IMG/VR virus record: IMGVR_UViG_3300010885_041357
Location: 1-40,965 of that record
DNA: 40,965 bases
DNA from: a virus
Reading direction: 5' to 3' (one strand)
Position numbers and translations under genes: made by a program. Shown piece after piece: positions 30,795 through 36,065 of this stretch. The notes under the pieces were generated by a model. It had not been told where the DNA came from. It ran no database searches and saw nothing but the letters and a program-made list of their open reading frames with translations. Within the stretch, counting starts at the first letter, position 1; every line of letters begins with the position of its first letter.

Positions 30795-31555
30795 GTATAG
30801 TTATATTTGGTAAAGGTAAGGTTGGTATGGCAACAGACCTTACATTAAAAACAGAAGCTGATTTTTATGATCCACAAAAAGGATATGTTATTGAAGATTT
30901 TAGCAAATACAATATTGCTTTTATATGTGTAAGCTCGCTTGTGCATGGTCCTTACGATCATGTATCTATTGAAGATTGTTTAGAAAAGCTTCATAAATCT
31001 AATTTTACTGGTATTGTTGCTATTCGTTGTACTTTGCATCCTTCGTTTATAAAACATTGGGAATACCTTTATGCTAATCTAAAAATTGTTCACTTTCCTG
31101 AGTTTATGAAACAGGGTGATGAGGAGTATTTGGATCAACCATGGATTGTTGTTCTTGGTGGTAAACGCGAACATACAGAACGTCTTGGCAGCTGGTTAAT
31201 ACAGCACAAGTATGGTACAAAAGACCAATTACATTATTGTACATTAGTTGAGAGTGCTTTAATTAAGTTACATCAGAACGCTGGTCTTGCATTAAAGGTT
31301 ACGTATGCAAACATGATGTATAGAGCATGTAAAGAGTATGGTGCTGACTTTGAGACTGTTCGCTTAGGAGCAACAGCAGATGCAAGAGTTGGCCCCGCAC
31401 ATACACAAGTACCAGGTGAGCACGGGTTTGGTTTTGGTGGACATTGTCTTCCAAAAGATGTAAGATGTCTCAATGCAACATTTCCTCAACATGGTTTTTG
31501 GAATGCGCTAATTGAAACAAATGACCATATGAGAGCGTATAATGATTACAAGTAA
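30791..31555 (+). CDS. Short UDP-sugar 6-dehydrogenase-like protein
   Basis: This 254-residue protein resembles UDP-glucose/GDP-mannose dehydrogenases. The NAD-binding loop is reduced to IVIFGKGKVGMATD. The central helix VESALIKLHQNAGLALKVTY holds the family Lys159 and Asn163. The active-site Cys219 lies in FGGHCLPKD, the classic GxCxPKD motif. Normal enzymes have about 400 residues. This one has a shorter Rossmann domain and ends soon after the cysteine motif, so the C-terminal UDP-binding domain is missing. It may act on another substrate or have a changed role. It overlaps queE by 14 bases and the deformylase by four. Confidence 0.75.
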   Translation: MSIVIFGKGKVGMATDLTLKTEADFYDPQKGYVIEDFSKYNIAFICVSSLVHGPYDHVSIEDCLEKLHKSNFTGIVAIRCTLHPSFIKHWEYLYANLKIVHFPEFMKQGDEEYLDQPWIVVLGGKREHTERLGSWLIQHKYGTKDQLHYCTLVESALIKLHQNAGLALKVTYANMMYRACKEYGADFETVRLGATADARVGPAHTQVPGEHGFGFGGHCLPKDVRCLNATFPQHGFWNALIETNDHMRAYNDYK

Positions 31556-32459
31556 ACCAATAGCGTATAGTGAGATATTTCATTCGATTCAGGGTGAGGG
31601 TCACTATACGGGCCGGCCAACAGCTTGGCTAAGATTTTTTCTGTTTAACCTTCAGTGTGATGGCTTCGGCCAGAAGGATCCCACAGATCCATCTACCTAT
31701 ATACTTCCCTATCAACAGATAGATATCTCAAGCATTAAAAAGCTAGAAGATCTTCCTGTGTGGAAGTATGGTTGTGATTCATCTTATTCGTGGTCTGCAA
31801 AGTTTAAACACTTGCAACATAAACATACTGCTGCTGATATTTGCAACCGTATTCGTCAGTCAATGTATCATCCTTCTAATCCAGAAGGAAAGTTTAATAA
31901 GATTAACGGTACAATGCAGCATATGTGCTTTACTGGTGGTGAGCCAATGATGAAGCATGCACAACACGCATCAATTGCTATTATTGATCACTTTGCAACA
32001 GAAGGCGACTTTCCGTTGTTTATGACATGGGAAACAAATGGTACTCAACCATTGACGTCGGAATTTTCTTTATACTTTGGCGAAGCATATCCAGGAGAGG
32101 TATTCTTCTCTGTATCGCCAAAGTTACATACAACATCGGGTGAGAAAGCAGAAGATGCTATCTGTCCCGATATAGTGAAGAGTTATCAGAACCTCTCACC
32201 GCATGGACAGCTAAAGTTTGTGGTCAGTGGTAAACAAGAGTCTTGGGACGAGCTCGAAACAACAATCGAGAAGTTTAGGGAAGCAGGCGTGACATATCCG
32301 GTCTGGATCATGGGTGTTGGTGCAACACTTGAGGCTCAGAAGGGAACCGAAGCAGGTTACATCGGAGAGGCTAAAATTGCTGAAGAAGCATTTAAGCGTG
32401 GTTACAACTATTCCTCAAGAGTGCATGTTCACATCTGGGGAAACACAATGGGAACATAA
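31542..32459 (+). CDS. queE: 7-carboxy-7-deazaguanine synthase, QueE-like radical SAM protein
   Basis: This 305-residue protein would convert 6-carboxytetrahydropterin to 7-carboxy-7-deazaguanine. The opening EIFHSIQGEGHYTGRPTAWL is typical QueE, and CFTGGEPMM (GGEP 132-135) is the SAM-binding motif. Of the three cluster cysteines, Cys39 (NLQC) and Cys78 (GCDSSYSW, after a phage-type insertion) are present. The first is replaced by Phe35 in FFLFNLQCDGF, where CNLxC is expected. A single TGT-to-TTT change explains it. Unless this is a sequencing error, activity would be impaired. It starts inside the previous gene and ends three bases before queD, so the pathway genes are coupled. Confidence 0.85.
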   Translation: MITSKPIAYSEIFHSIQGEGHYTGRPTAWLRFFLFNLQCDGFGQKDPTDPSTYILPYQQIDISSIKKLEDLPVWKYGCDSSYSWSAKFKHLQHKHTAADICNRIRQSMYHPSNPEGKFNKINGTMQHMCFTGGEPMMKHAQHASIAIIDHFATEGDFPLFMTWETNGTQPLTSEFSLYFGEAYPGEVFFSVSPKLHTTSGEKAEDAICPDIVKSYQNLSPHGQLKFVVSGKQESWDELETTIEKFREAGVTYPVWIMGVGATLEAQKGTEAGYIGEAKIAEEAFKRGYNYSSRVHVHIWGNTMGT

Positions 32460-32462
32460 TAT

Positions 32463-32993
32463 ATGTGGGATACAACATCTTTTGGTAATAGACCAATTCA
32501 ATACAAATATACAAGCACGAAAGAGTATCACGATGCCTTTCCGTGTGCATATCGTCAATGGAGAGCAGATAGTCATTGTAACCTAATTCATGGTTACAGT
32601 TTCTCAATGCGGTTCTTCTTTGGAACCAATAATTTAGATGCACGTAATTGGTGTGCGGATTATGGTGGTCTAAAAGAACTAAAAAAGATTTTAGAAGATC
32701 AATTTGACCATACGTTGCTAGTAGCTGAGGATGATCCTGAGCTCGAAATGTACAAAGAACTCCAAGCACGCAACCTTGCTAAGCTAACAATCCTTCCTAA
32801 GCTGGGATGTGAGGGTCTTGCTGATCAACTATACAAGTTTGTTAATGGTGTGTACATTCCTGACTACTGGGGTCAAGGAGAAGCTGATCGTTTGTGGTGT
32901 TACCGTGTAGAGGTACGTGAAACACAAGCAAATATGGCCTTCCGTGAAGGTCACCGTGAATGGAAAGAAGATCTATTTGAAGATGTTCGTTAA
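32463..32993 (+). CDS. queD: 6-carboxytetrahydropterin synthase, QueD-like
   Basis: This 176-residue PTPS-family enzyme would make 6-carboxytetrahydropterin from the FolE product. The zinc region reads SHCNLIHGYSFSMRFFF, where Tyr replaces the second His of the usual HGH. The Cys of the CxxxHG motif is present. Further family features are WCADYGGLKELKKILEDQFD followed by HTLLV, and GCEGLADQLYKFVN in place of the TxENLA helix, and VRETQANMA at the end. The HGY form may be a phage subfamily trait. It lies between queE and a small gene, followed by folE. Its stop overlaps the next start (TAATG). Confidence 0.88.
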   Translation: MWDTTSFGNRPIQYKYTSTKEYHDAFPCAYRQWRADSHCNLIHGYSFSMRFFFGTNNLDARNWCADYGGLKELKKILEDQFDHTLLVAEDDPELEMYKELQARNLAKLTILPKLGCEGLADQLYKFVNGVYIPDYWGQGEADRLWCYRVEVRETQANMAFREGHREWKEDLFEDVR

Positions 32994-33214
32994 TGGCTAC
33001 AACAGGTTTTAAAATGTTTGCTTGGGCACCTGATGGCATTTATGACCATCAGGAAAATCAAGTACGTTACGTTGTAAAAGATGGTTGTGTAAAAGGCCAA
33101 ACTATTCTTTCAAAAAACTGGGTTGACATTGGACCACCAGATCATGTACAATCTGAATTAAAGCAACCATGGGGTACGTTTCCTGACGTGCCTCCTAAAC
33201 CACCAAAGAAGTAG
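32993..33214 (+). CDS. Small protein in the 7-deazaguanine operon, function unknown
   Basis: This 73-residue protein begins in the TAATG overlap with queD. It is aromatic and polar (FKMFAWAPDGIYDHQENQVR), with a Pro/Lys-rich end (FPDVPPKPPKK). No known motif, signal or membrane segment is seen. Being translationally tied to queD and eight bases before folE, it may belong to the modification pathway. That is only a positional inference. Confidence 0.6.
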   Translation: MATTGFKMFAWAPDGIYDHQENQVRYVVKDGCVKGQTILSKNWVDIGPPDHVQSELKQPWGTFPDVPPKPPKK

Positions 33215-33221
33215 GAGTTAT

Positions 33222-33896
33222 ATGGAAAAGACAGACGCAGCACTGGGTGCTAAGGTACACGAACATTTAGTTCATTTTGGGCTTGAGACACCAATGAACT
33301 ATAAGCAGGTTCAGGTAAAGGATGATAAAAAAATTAAAGTAATTGCAAAGCATTTTACTGCAATTATGGAGGAGCTTGGTCTTGACTTGACAGATGACTC
33401 TTTGATAGATACACCTAACCGTGTTGCAAAGATGTATGTACGTGAAATCTTTACAGGATTAAATTATGACAACTTTCCGAAATGTACCCGTATTGAGAAC
33501 AAGATGGGACAGAATAACAGCTTCGTTCTTGAACGCAATGTTAATGTGCAGTCTAATTGTGAGCATCATTTCGTTGTCATTGATGGTAAAGCAACCGTTG
33601 CATACATTCCGAAAAAGACCATTCTTGGTTTATCAAAGCTAAACAGAATTGTTCAGTTTTTCTCTAAGCGTCCACAGGTACAAGAGCGTTTGACAGAGCA
33701 GATTGCTGAGACTATTTCCTACATTACAGAATCTCCTGATGTAGCTGTTTACATTGAAGGTGTTCATTACTGCGTGAAATCACGTGGTATTCAGGACGTA
33801 ACGTCATCGACCATGACGTTAGCAACGCGCGGCGCTTTTGCTGAAAGCAACTCAGAATTACGTCGTGAATTTTTAAACTCTGCAAGGATGAGATAA
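33222..33896 (+). CDS. folE: GTP cyclohydrolase I, FolE-like
   Basis: This 224-residue enzyme catalyses the first step, GTP to 7,8-dihydroneopterin triphosphate. Zinc ligands are Cys113 and His116 in SNCEHHF and Cys184 in HYCVKSRG. The conserved core VAYIPKKTILGLSKLNRIVQ and RPQVQERLTEQIAETI is intact. Length matches bacterial FolE. The ATG follows TAGGAGTTAT. With queD and queE nearby, the product most likely feeds 7-deazaguanine synthesis rather than folate. The stop overlaps the next gene's start (TAATG). Confidence 0.95.
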   Translation: MEKTDAALGAKVHEHLVHFGLETPMNYKQVQVKDDKKIKVIAKHFTAIMEELGLDLTDDSLIDTPNRVAKMYVREIFTGLNYDNFPKCTRIENKMGQNNSFVLERNVNVQSNCEHHFVVIDGKATVAYIPKKTILGLSKLNRIVQFFSKRPQVQERLTEQIAETISYITESPDVAVYIEGVHYCVKSRGIQDVTSSTMTLATRGAFAESNSELRREFLNSARMR

Positions 33897-34258
33897 TGGC
33901 AAAAGTTTATCTCTGCCAGTTTACAGATAAGCAAACTGGCAAGTTCTTTTTTAAATTTGGACATACGTCTAAAGATGATGTGCTCGATCGATTTGATGTT
34001 AAATATGATCCTCGTTATGGAGATTTTGACATTAAAGCTATTTGTAGTATTCGTGGTGACATTAAATGGTGTCAACAAATCGAAGAAATATTTAAAGCAT
34101 TATATCCAAAAAATATTTGGTTGGAAGAATATCTTGGTGATGAAAGAACGTGGGATGCGTTGTCTGGTATTACCGAGATTGTCCATTTAACAGAACAAGA
34201 GTATAATAAGGTCCGCGTTGCATTTTATAAAGTGAGAGATATACAATATGGAAAATAA
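33896..34258 (+). CDS. Putative GIY-YIG-fold small protein (T5orf172/Mug113-like)
   Basis: This 120-residue protein has KVYLCQFTDKQTGKFFFKFG followed by HTSKDDVLDRF. The pairing of a YxxxF-type strand with a KxGHT strand and a downstream Arg is the pattern of short GIY-YIG-like domains such as T5orf172/Mug113. A Glu in QQIEEIFKALYP could be the metal ligand. Typical GIY and YIG triplets are not exact, so a nuclease role is uncertain. It starts in TAATG after folE and overlaps the next gene by 11 bases, inside the DNA-modification block. Confidence 0.5.
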   Translation: MAKVYLCQFTDKQTGKFFFKFGHTSKDDVLDRFDVKYDPRYGDFDIKAICSIRGDIKWCQQIEEIFKALYPKNIWLEEYLGDERTWDALSGITEIVHLTEQEYNKVRVAFYKVRDIQYGK

Positions 34259-34628
34259 AAGTTTTATATGGGTGACGTTTCAGAAAGAAGGTATACACAA
34301 GTATCCACAAGCTGCTACTGATCCAAAGCTAGCAACGGGTGATTGGCTTGATGTTAGTTTCTTAGGTACACCTCATCGCCATATCTTTCACTTCCGTGTT
34401 GAGATGGAAGTATTCCATGATGATCGTGATGTTGAATTTATTCAAGCAAAACGTATTATGGAACGTTGGTTTAGCGATGGTACACTAGCACTAGATTACA
34501 AGTCATGTGAAATGATTGCAAAGGATCTTTATGCAAAGTGTATTAGCACGTGGCCAGATCGGGACTATGTAATTGAAGTCTCAGAAGACGGTGAGAATGG
34601 TTGCCGTATGTATTTTAACAAGGTTTAA
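34248..34628 (+). CDS. Second PTPS/QueD-fold protein next to dpdA
   Basis: This 126-residue protein looks like a divergent tunnelling-fold (PTPS/QueD) enzyme. It has HRHIFHFRVEMEVFHDD, in which HxH followed by alternating strand residues matches the HGH zinc motif of QueD. Then come VEFIQAKRIMERWF (like the DFxxLK helix), YKSCEMIAKDLYAKC (like the TxExLA helix), and VIEVSEDGENGCRMYF (like the final VxVxET strand). The reading is by motif order, not overall identity. It overlaps the previous gene and ends two bases before dpdA. A pterin or 7-deazaguanine tailoring role is plausible. A merely structural relative is also possible. Confidence 0.5.
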   Translation: MENKSFIWVTFQKEGIHKYPQAATDPKLATGDWLDVSFLGTPHRHIFHFRVEMEVFHDDRDVEFIQAKRIMERWFSDGTLALDYKSCEMIAKDLYAKCISTWPDRDYVIEVSEDGENGCRMYFNKV

Positions 34629-34630
34629 TA

Positions 34631-35476
34631 ATGATTAATTTTTGTCATATCAGTCCATCAGCTTATCTTCCTAAGTATACAAAAGATAACGGTGCTCATT
34701 TGATTCTTGCTCACCTTGTTGAAGAAGATCCCACATACAGGGACTTCTATGCAAGAATGTCAAATCGTGAATATAAGATTATGGACAATAGTGCGTTTGA
34801 GATGTTTAAACTTGGTCTACCAATGTATGAGCCAGGTAAACTAATTGAGATGGGCAACGCCTGTCAAACAGACTGTATTGTTCTTTCTGACTATCCCAAG
34901 CAGCCTTCATATGTAACTGTCAATGCAGCAAAGAAACTGATTCCTGAATTTAAAGCGAATGGATTTGATACATTCTTTGTTCCTCAAAGTGAACTAGGTG
35001 ACATGCATGATCTGGTCAATGCTATTGAGTGGGCATTGCACAATCCAGATATTAATTTGATTGGTCTTTCCATTCTGTCTACACCAATTGCTTGTGGTGT
35101 TGATGAAACAACTTTTGAGGGTGGTAAACGTAGTGATGCATATAAGATGCAACGTTACCTTTCGCGTCTTGCAGTATTTCGTGAATTGGAAAAACGTAAC
35201 TTGCTTACTAGCTTAGCAAAGAAGCGGTTCCATTGTCTTGGTATGGTTGATGGTCCAAAAGAGATTGACTTGTTACGTGAATATCACGAGTTTATTTTTA
35301 CATGGGATTCAAGTGCTGCTGTTTGGGCTGGTATCAACGGTATTCGTTTTGATAATTCGCCAACAGGGCTAATGAATGGTAAATTTGAAAAAGAAGTTGA
35401 CTTTCACCACAAAGAAGAGCATAATACATTAGCCGTTTACGACAACATTAATTATATCAATTCTCTTTGTGGATAA
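34631..35476 (+). CDS. dpdA: DpdA-like DNA 7-deazaguanine transglycosylase
   Basis: This 281-residue protein resembles the TGT-like DpdA family, which swaps guanine in DNA for a 7-deazaguanine base. Matching features of the TIM-barrel enzyme are a conserved Asp in IMDNSAFEMFKLG (D52) and NLIGLSILSTP. The late HCLGMVDGPKEIDLLREY is followed by FTWDSSAAVWAG (D226 as candidate nucleophile). It is shorter than tRNA TGT (about 370), as in phage DpdA versions, and lacks the C-terminal CxCxxC zinc site of tRNA TGT. The neighbouring folE, queD and queE supply the base precursor, which strongly supports the call. Confidence 0.75.
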   Translation: MINFCHISPSAYLPKYTKDNGAHLILAHLVEEDPTYRDFYARMSNREYKIMDNSAFEMFKLGLPMYEPGKLIEMGNACQTDCIVLSDYPKQPSYVTVNAAKKLIPEFKANGFDTFFVPQSELGDMHDLVNAIEWALHNPDINLIGLSILSTPIACGVDETTFEGGKRSDAYKMQRYLSRLAVFRELEKRNLLTSLAKKRFHCLGMVDGPKEIDLLREYHEFIFTWDSSAAVWAGINGIRFDNSPTGLMNGKFEKEVDFHHKEEHNTLAVYDNINYINSLCG

Positions 35477-35477
35477 A

Positions 35478-36065
35478 ATGAAACTGAAGGTTATAGCATT
35501 GACTGGACCCAAGGGATCCGGTAAGGATACTGTTGGACAATTAATCAAGCAGTATTTTATTGCACCTGGTTGGAGTGCTCATACAATTGCTTTTGCCGAT
35601 CCAATTAAGACAGTGGTTAGGGATTTGTTTGTATTTGAGACAATGCAAGAGTATGATGATTTCAAGAGAACTACTTGTAATTTCAGTTTACCTAAAACAA
35701 TAACAAGAGACATGCAGCTTTACCAAGTCGAAGGTAGACATCTTGTTCGTGAGATTGGTATGCTAATGCGTAAATATGATGACAAGCAATTTACCAAGTA
35801 TGTTGTTGATGAAATTGAATATCGTCCCGACGATGTTTGGGTTGTAACGGATTTACGTTTTGATAATGAGTGGTTAGTGCTTAAACAGTTAGGTGCTAAG
35901 GTAATTAACATTAAGCGACCTAATTATGAATTTGATGGACATATTACAGAGCGTGGGTTTAATGAGAGCCTTGTTGACTATCAACTGCTAAATGATGGAG
36001 ACTTGGCGTATCTTAAAACAAGAGTTAATAGTATTATGGATAGTATTATGAAGGAGTGGGTATGA
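35478..36065 (+). CDS. Deoxynucleoside monophosphate kinase, T4 gp1-like
   Basis: This 195-residue protein starts MKLKVIALTGPKGSGKDTVG. The P-loop is GPKGSGKDT at residues 10-18. Downstream, IAFADPIKTVVRDLF and VVTDLRFDNEWLVLKQLGAK are typical of phage dNMP kinases, and INIKRPNYEFDGHITERGFN carries Arg and Glu residues near the substrate. A GTG at 35469 gives three extra residues, but the ATG at 35478, one base after the dpdA stop, fits the family start better. The enzyme would turn host-derived dNMPs to dNDPs for phage DNA synthesis. It overlaps the next gene by ATGA. Confidence 0.85.
   Translation: MKLKVIALTGPKGSGKDTVGQLIKQYFIAPGWSAHTIAFADPIKTVVRDLFVFETMQEYDDFKRTTCNFSLPKTITRDMQLYQVEGRHLVREIGMLMRKYDDKQFTKYVVDEIEYRPDDVWVVTDLRFDNEWLVLKQLGAKVINIKRPNYEFDGHITERGFNESLVDYQLLNDGDLAYLKTRVNSIMDSIMKEWV

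Follow-up and report, generated by a model that had tools for sequence, protein, structure and literature searches.

7-Deaza bases that replace guanine shield phage DNA from restriction enzymes. In 2023, Cui et al. reportedly detected dDG as well as dCDG in the DNA of phages; they are also reported to have put forward DpdL as a predicted decarboxylase of 7-carboxy-7-deazaguanine (CDG). In QueD of E. coli, an enzyme of the tunnelling fold (T-fold), we take the zinc ligands to be His16, His31 and His33, the catalytic residues to be Cys27 and the Asp70-His71 pair, and the residue that anchors the ring to be Glu110. QueF and QueF-like enzymes, also of the T-fold, act on C7 of 7-deazaguanine and have a nitrile substrate, a catalytic cysteine and an NADPH motif. 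PMC13329287 describes QueC as a zinc-binding Rossmann-type enzyme that forms the nitrile through two ATP-dependent steps, and a phage missing only QueC could, according to Hutinet et al. (2019; PMC6884629), carry a CDG modification. In tubercidin biosynthesis, loss of this carboxylate from a compound derived from CDG is proposed to be the work of TubF, a UbiD-family protein (PMC6112128).

The protein that we describe here shares features with several of these systems. Like QueD (PF01242), it has the T-fold, three zinc-type histidines and a ring-anchoring glutamate, and is found in the same type of operon; unlike QueD, it has a leucine in place of the catalytic cysteine (54/54 family members), has no Asp-His pair, and carries the new invariant residues R60, C87 and D114. 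It occupies the same pathway position as QueC (PF06508), after QueE, and alternates with it on the ACP17/nt-1 class of DpdA, but its fold and presumably its chemistry are different. The T-fold is also common to it and QueF-like (5jyx, VIA-align Z 10.4), whereas neither the catalytic cysteine nor the NADPH motif of QueF was noticed in an informal look at the sequence, in which C87 is invariant. TubF differs from it in that it is a UbiD-family protein, probably uses prenylated FMN as its cofactor and is proposed to act after ribosylation (PMC6112128).

The gene, its neighbours and its distribution

The window, that is, the whole stretch of viral DNA that was analysed, is a record of 40,965 bases and possibly a fragment. 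It encodes FolE, QueD, QueE and DpdA, in the following gene order.

31542..32459, plus strand: QueE-like radical SAM protein (phrog_2076, E 1.2e-47)
32463..32993, plus strand: QueD/PTPS homologue (PF01242, E 1.2e-13; phrog_2389)
32993..33214, plus strand: 73-aa ORF of unknown function, with homologues in 10/118 loci
33222..33896, plus strand: FolE, GTP cyclohydrolase I (PF01227, E 5.7e-58)
33896..34258, plus strand: 120-aa ORF of unknown function, no family match, overlapping the start of the next gene by 11 bases
34248..34628, plus strand: 126-aa T-fold protein (phrog_17812), an ORF with an ATG start; candidate 7-deazaguanine base tailoring enzyme
34631..35476, plus strand: DpdA-type transglycosylase, small class (AlphaFold2 pLDDT 92.9; TGT fold)
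35469..36065, plus strand: deoxynucleoside monophosphate kinase (phrog_139, E 4.6e-39), the downstream neighbour

The original prediction had placed the T-fold gene directly before dpdA, and this is what we found: the ATG at 34631 begins 2 nt past its stop codon, and the product of the downstream ORF models with the TGT fold. All 50 PDB matches listed for that model are tRNA-guanine transglycosylases (best E 4.4e-8).

The 126-residue protein is the product of a real, conserved gene. It matched the PHROGs profile phrog_17812 over residues 3-120 (E 3.7e-31), whereas phrog_2389, the QueD profile, gave a mere trace (E 0.28). Relatives with 33-60% identity were found by tblastn in 26/50,697 phage records, Cellulophaga phages among them; 162 IMG/VR stretches encode a relative, and a search with the family profile raised the number to at least 578. 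In GTDB contigs there were 21 loci, 2 of which, both from Amycolatopsis, resemble prophage when the neighbouring ORFs are judged by eye. The family is thus common in viral contigs, yet no Pfam or NCBIfam model naming it was found in our searches. The motifs that had been read from the sequence earlier are present (HRH at residues 43-45, SCE at 86-88 and VSED at 111-114), and a chance motif match was ruled out by the predicted fold, the profile comparison and the conservation.

Two of the neighbouring proteins have unusual residues of their own. Residue 35 of the window QueE (31644-31646) is phenylalanine, at a position where the near relatives listed have the first cluster cysteine. The same Phe35 occurs in locus L002, possibly from the same virus, and it could mean that this QueE is inactive or changed in function, or that a base was misread. 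The window QueD retains Cys27, Asp70, His71 and Glu110 and has tyrosine at the zinc-ligand columns 16 and 33. This Tyr variant is common among the phage QueDs compared (Y16 in 36/58, Y33 in 50/58). The idea that loss of these zinc ligands is tied to the T-fold protein was not upheld, since phi3:1, a QueC phage without the T-fold gene, shows the same variant, and since the canonical HGH QueD is present in some loci with the T-fold gene.

Predicted fold and pocket residues

The AlphaFold2 model of the protein, made with 54 aligned sequences, had a pLDDT of 96.4 and a pTM of 0.87. Its strands span residues 5-17, 43-55, 107-113 and 117-123 and its helices residues 64-74 and 87-101, which gives the bbaabb order of the tunnelling-fold superfamily. 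Foldseek returned 19 PDB matches at E values up to 0.001, all of them QueD or PTPS, with E. coli QueD (4ntk) as the best (E 5.8e-6, TM 0.70). QueD and PTPS also headed the VIA-align ranking (2dj6, Z 13.1; 4ntk_A, Z 12.5 and 2.3 Å over 111 residues), above DHNA (near 11), QueF-like (5jyx, Z 10.4) and uricase (Z 10.0). The PTPS/QueD fold that had been proposed from the sequence was therefore recovered by structure prediction and fold search. The claim that the sequence is far from that of the QueD at 32463 also proved right (BLASTP E 0.32, not significant).

Kinship to QueD is visible when profiles are compared, as hhalign linked the two families with a probability of 95.5-95.9 and E values of 1e-8 to 3e-9. 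The Pfam model PF01242 gave no match to the window protein up to E 1 and was matched weakly by 5/54 family members (best E 0.0023). A copper amine oxidase assignment was rejected: that Pfam model covered residues 27-67 only of the window protein, at an E value (0.051) that did not pass the cut-off, and it also fell short of the cut-off in the 13/54 family members in which it appeared (best E 0.014). Matches to IucA (E 0.26) and MS2 coat (E 1.7) in a PDB profile search were taken as chance.

Residue conservation was assessed in two alignments, A2 with 54 rows and A1 with 15 rows including distant phages, and QueD residues were mapped onto the protein through the global hhalign alignment. The positions of interest are the following.

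34296..34298, plus strand: His17, aligned with the QueD zinc ligand His16 (54/54; hhalign mapping)
34362..34364, plus strand: Leu39, on the QueD catalytic Cys27 (Leu in 54/54; Cys in 58/58 QueDs)
34374..34382, plus strand: His43-Arg44-His45, aligned with QueD His31 and His33 (H43 and H45 in 54/54 and 15/15)
34503..34511, plus strand: Ser86-Cys87-Glu88, where helix 2 begins (54/54)
34584..34589, plus strand: Glu113-Asp114, Glu113 being aligned with QueD Glu110 (Glu113 in 54/54; hhalign mapping)

Eleven residues (H17, L39, H43, H45, R60, E63, F64, S86, C87, E88 and E113) are identical in 54/54 rows of A2 and 15/15 rows of A1, while R44 is kept in 54/54 and 13/15, respectively. By alignment, then, the three zinc-type histidines of QueD/PTPS are all kept in 54/54 members, and H17, H43 and H45 would be expected to bind zinc. 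Since this triad and the glutamate are kept, the pocket is predicted to accommodate a metal and a guanine-like ring. The catalytic residues of QueD fared differently. Cys27, Asp70, His71, Glu86 and Glu110 are present in 58/58 QueDs compared, whereas the stretch of the T-fold protein that hhalign aligned with Asp70-His71 holds no Asp-His. Three invariant polar residues are new relative to QueD, namely R60, C87 and D114 (each 54/54 in A2; in A1, 15/15 for R60 and C87 and 14/15 for D114). With an invariant leucine in place of Cys27 and no Asp-His pair, the protein is unlikely to run QueD chemistry. The original prediction that one of the two PTPS-fold proteins has a different reaction is accordingly likely, judging from an active site so unlike that of QueD.

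Pathway genes, DpdA classes and glycosyltransferases

We searched 34 records bearing the T-fold gene, other than the window, as wholes for pathway genes. These were 22 IMG/VR contigs, possibly fragments, and 12 named phages, which represent 11 lineages because phi13:1 duplicates phiST. FolE and QueE were each found in 34/34, and a canonical QueD in 30/34, none being found in D479, G005, G007 and G018. The QueC search gave matches over the cut-off in 4/34. Two of these (G006 and G020) were rejected as QueC, being NAD synthase (PF02540, E 6e-50 and 3e-49), as was a sub-threshold match in X1. The other two (D479 and G002) are QueC-like singletons (PF06508, E 6e-8 and 1e-10), located away from the deazaguanine genes and with an altered P-loop (SGIDS and SSGLES instead of SGGxDS); as they score about as strongly as the control phage Ps15 (1.5e-8), the exclusion of QueC is unproven for those two. 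A clear copy of QueC was thus present in 0/34 records, 32 being without QueC and 2 ambiguous. The QueC of phage CAjan matches 331 phage records, and the best 60 of the 331 include none of the 26 phage records with the T-fold gene. In two contigs bearing the T-fold gene, an NAD synthase gene lies right after QueE (L257:1429-2181 and L258:1414-2181).

Nine phages served as QueC controls: CAjan, 9g, nt-1, pf16, Ps15, Vibrio 2.275.O, phi3:1, CP220 and PhiXhv-15. They were chosen for carrying QueC or being so named, except for pf16 (chosen for its DpdA), PhiXhv-15 (for its GT4-type glycosyltransferase) and Ps15 (taken from the DpdA list and annotated with QueC). QueC was found in 9/9 of them and the T-fold protein in 0/9, with a profile that found it in 5/5 phages known to encode it. 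The original prediction had named the company of dpdA and the lack of queC as a check; in the 34 records the T-fold gene does go together with genes of the 7-deazaguanine pathway, and none has an unambiguous QueC. Within one DpdA class (ACP17/nt-1), the T-fold protein is found in ACP17, ZZ01 and X1, and QueC in nt-1, pf16 and Ps15. Because the two alternate on one class of DpdA, the T-fold protein probably works on the substrate of QueC, which is CDG, the product of QueE.

Relatives of the window DpdA occur in 4 phage records, and the T-fold protein in 4/4 of these; all 12 named phages with the T-fold protein carry one of four DpdA types. A DpdA-centred search of IMG/VR found the T-fold gene in the loci of 76 of the best 80 of 216 relatives, the other four (L195, L209, L247 and L248) having fewer than 500 bases upstream. 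Neighbours were counted from a set of 181 loci. Of these, 176 have the T-fold ORF; dereplication at 95% identity left 118, and the tree has 114 rows. ORFs were called with a simple longest-ORF caller up to 10 kb per side and many loci end at contig ends, so that the counts are lower bounds: FolE 81, QueE 65, QueD 50, DpdA 105 and any of these 113 of the 118 loci. The DpdA genes comprise 56 of the PA5oct type, 31 of the small class (including 3 of the phiST type) and 18 of the ACP17 type. The ACP17 DpdA is 35.7% identical to that of nt-1 across 59% of the protein; PMC6884629 names the nt-1 DpdA DpdA2, and the protein that we matched is presumably that one.

In the tree of the 114 T-fold proteins, which rests on few columns and leaves 52/111 inner branches open, the window protein falls inside a supported set of 33 (SH-aLRT 99), whose DpdA partners are 19 of the small class and 14 of the ACP17 class. 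One of its nearest relatives (L005; 88% identical) is accompanied by an ACP17-type DpdA, two GT4s and GalE. As T-fold proteins of one tight clade are common to different DpdA classes, they would act on a common base rather than with one DpdA, and as similar proteins work alongside different DpdAs, whether or not GT4 is there, what they make would most likely be a free base upstream of both.

A GT4 gene (Glycos_transf_1) was found in 67/118 loci (for example L084:6855-7913, L082:6963-7991 and L005:10400-12600). By DpdA partner, it accompanies 45/56 of the PA5oct type and 14/18 of the ACP17 type (together 59/74) and 0/31 of the small class; it is also present in 8/13 loci where no DpdA lies within reach. 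In 32/118 loci there is a GalE-like epimerase (PF01370, E 3.6e-52). GT4 homologues occur in 19 phage records, of which 15 have the T-fold protein; the 4/19 without it are Xanthomonas and Erwinia phages, at 23.8% identity.

Candidate reaction, rival explanations and a possible sugar

We consider it somewhat probable that the T-fold protein is a stand-alone enzyme in the place of QueC and decarboxylates CDG to 7-deazaguanine (DG) for DpdA; decarboxylation to 7-deazaguanine is our best guess for the reaction. FolE, QueD and QueE would make CDG, whose guanine edge would dock on E113, as on E110 of QueD, with its 7-carboxylate placed at a metal held by H17, H43 and H45, together with R60. C87, E63 or E88 might then provide the acid that helps to protonate C7 as CO2 departs. 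The product would be DG, with the 7-carboxylate removed, and DpdA would exchange guanine in DNA for DG, or for leftover CDG. To our knowledge, there is no decarboxylase with a T-fold. A point against this explanation is the window QueE, with phenylalanine at one cluster cysteine. In addition, bare 7-deazaguanine offers no C7 hydroxyl or amine to GT4, so that the product might differ, or the sugar might be attached elsewhere.

A first rival explanation is that the protein tailors C7 of CDG otherwise, for example with a hydroxyl-bearing group, so that DpdA would insert the base and the neighbouring GT4 would glycosylate it in some lineages. The frequency of GT4 beside the T-fold gene with PA5-type (45/56) and ACP17-type DpdA (14/18), the epimerase in 32/118 loci and the T-fold protein in 15/19 phage records with GT4 all speak for such a reaction, but 0/31 loci of the window's own DpdA class have GT4 and, in an incidental look, no reduction cofactor motif was noticed; we regard it as rather unlikely. 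It is improbable, in our estimation, that the protein has no catalytic role and, as a partner that binds zinc or the base, either delivers CDG to DpdA or keeps the complex together. Such a role would fit the loss of the catalytic Cys and Asp-His of QueD and the DpdA gene nearby in 105/118 loci; however, closely related proteins go with more than one DpdA class (in the clade of 33, 19 partners are of the small class and 14 of the ACP17 class), and R60, C87 and D114, polar residues that are both new and invariant (54/54, A2), suggest chemistry.

The protein might also be another QueD, a 6-carboxytetrahydropterin synthase that has diverged, or form one subunit of such an enzyme. This is suggested by the nearest fold, which is that of QueD, and by the histidines found at the two zinc-ligand columns where most phage QueDs examined here have tyrosine. 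We nevertheless hold it to be very improbable, given that the catalytic Cys, Asp and His are missing, that a canonical QueD stands alongside in 30/34 records, and that phi3:1, which has QueC and gave no T-fold protein with the profile, likewise carries the Tyr-type QueD. Still less probable is action earlier than QueE, on a pterin intermediate that the protein would divert or protect. The PTPS fold binds pterins, and FolE and QueE are present in 34/34 records, but the gene tally shows the protein in place of QueC, not of QueD.

Decarboxylation of CDG, which we continue to favour, may not be a new idea. Judging by the description of DpdL, it is quite likely that the family is DpdL of Cui et al. 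2023: DpdL reportedly has the same proposed reaction and sits in phage operons of a like type that lack QueC, and Cellulophaga phages are among those with relatives of the present protein. The original prediction of an undescribed enzyme was therefore probably overstated. Our literature search located no paper on DpdL, dDG or the family, which we do not take to mean that none exists. Whatever its name, the family would mark a branch off the known preQ0 route after QueE.

Near-identical T-fold proteins go with different DpdA classes, and in two of these classes GT4, often with the epimerase, lies nearby, which suggests that some of these phages have a sugar-bearing 7-deazaguanine. We propose tentatively, as a possibility that we hold doubtful, that the base made by the T-fold protein is inserted by several DpdA classes and that, in the two larger classes, GT4 fed by the GalE-like epimerase adds a sugar, which would give an undescribed glycosylated 7-deazaguanine. 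If this link is true, some phages with the T-fold protein would have a sugar-bearing 7-deazaguanine, and if the T-fold step is decarboxylation, the sugar could be on C7 itself, as a C-glycoside.

Several arrangements near GT4 or the T-fold gene are recorded here as observations. In the Xanthomonas phage PhiXhv-15 (L268:3735-6969), the GT4 homologue adjoins a Gat-QueC-like protein (QueC domain) and a PIG-L-type deacetylase, a set that could possibly place an amino-sugar on an archaeosine-type base. In the Magnetospirillum contigs L171-L174, GT4, the T-fold protein, a PA5oct-type DpdA and a QueD-like match lie close together in bacterial contigs. A family of ~160-175 aa (cluster 8; L082:5210-5695) occurs near the T-fold gene in 35/118 loci, 32 of them with a PA5oct-type DpdA; its ACP17 member had no Pfam match. 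Neither the 250 N-terminal aa of a fusion in Bakedbeans nor the whole protein of MA9V-3 gave a Pfam match; the N-terminal part of the latter looks HNH-like, by eye only. A C-terminal MazG domain is fused to the T-fold protein in L179:9968-10864, and a separate MazG gene overlaps the T-fold gene in phiST (L083:7424-8011). Finally, BFVD holds an alcohol-dehydrogenase-like protein and an AAA protein, each of which contains a domain like that of the T-fold protein.
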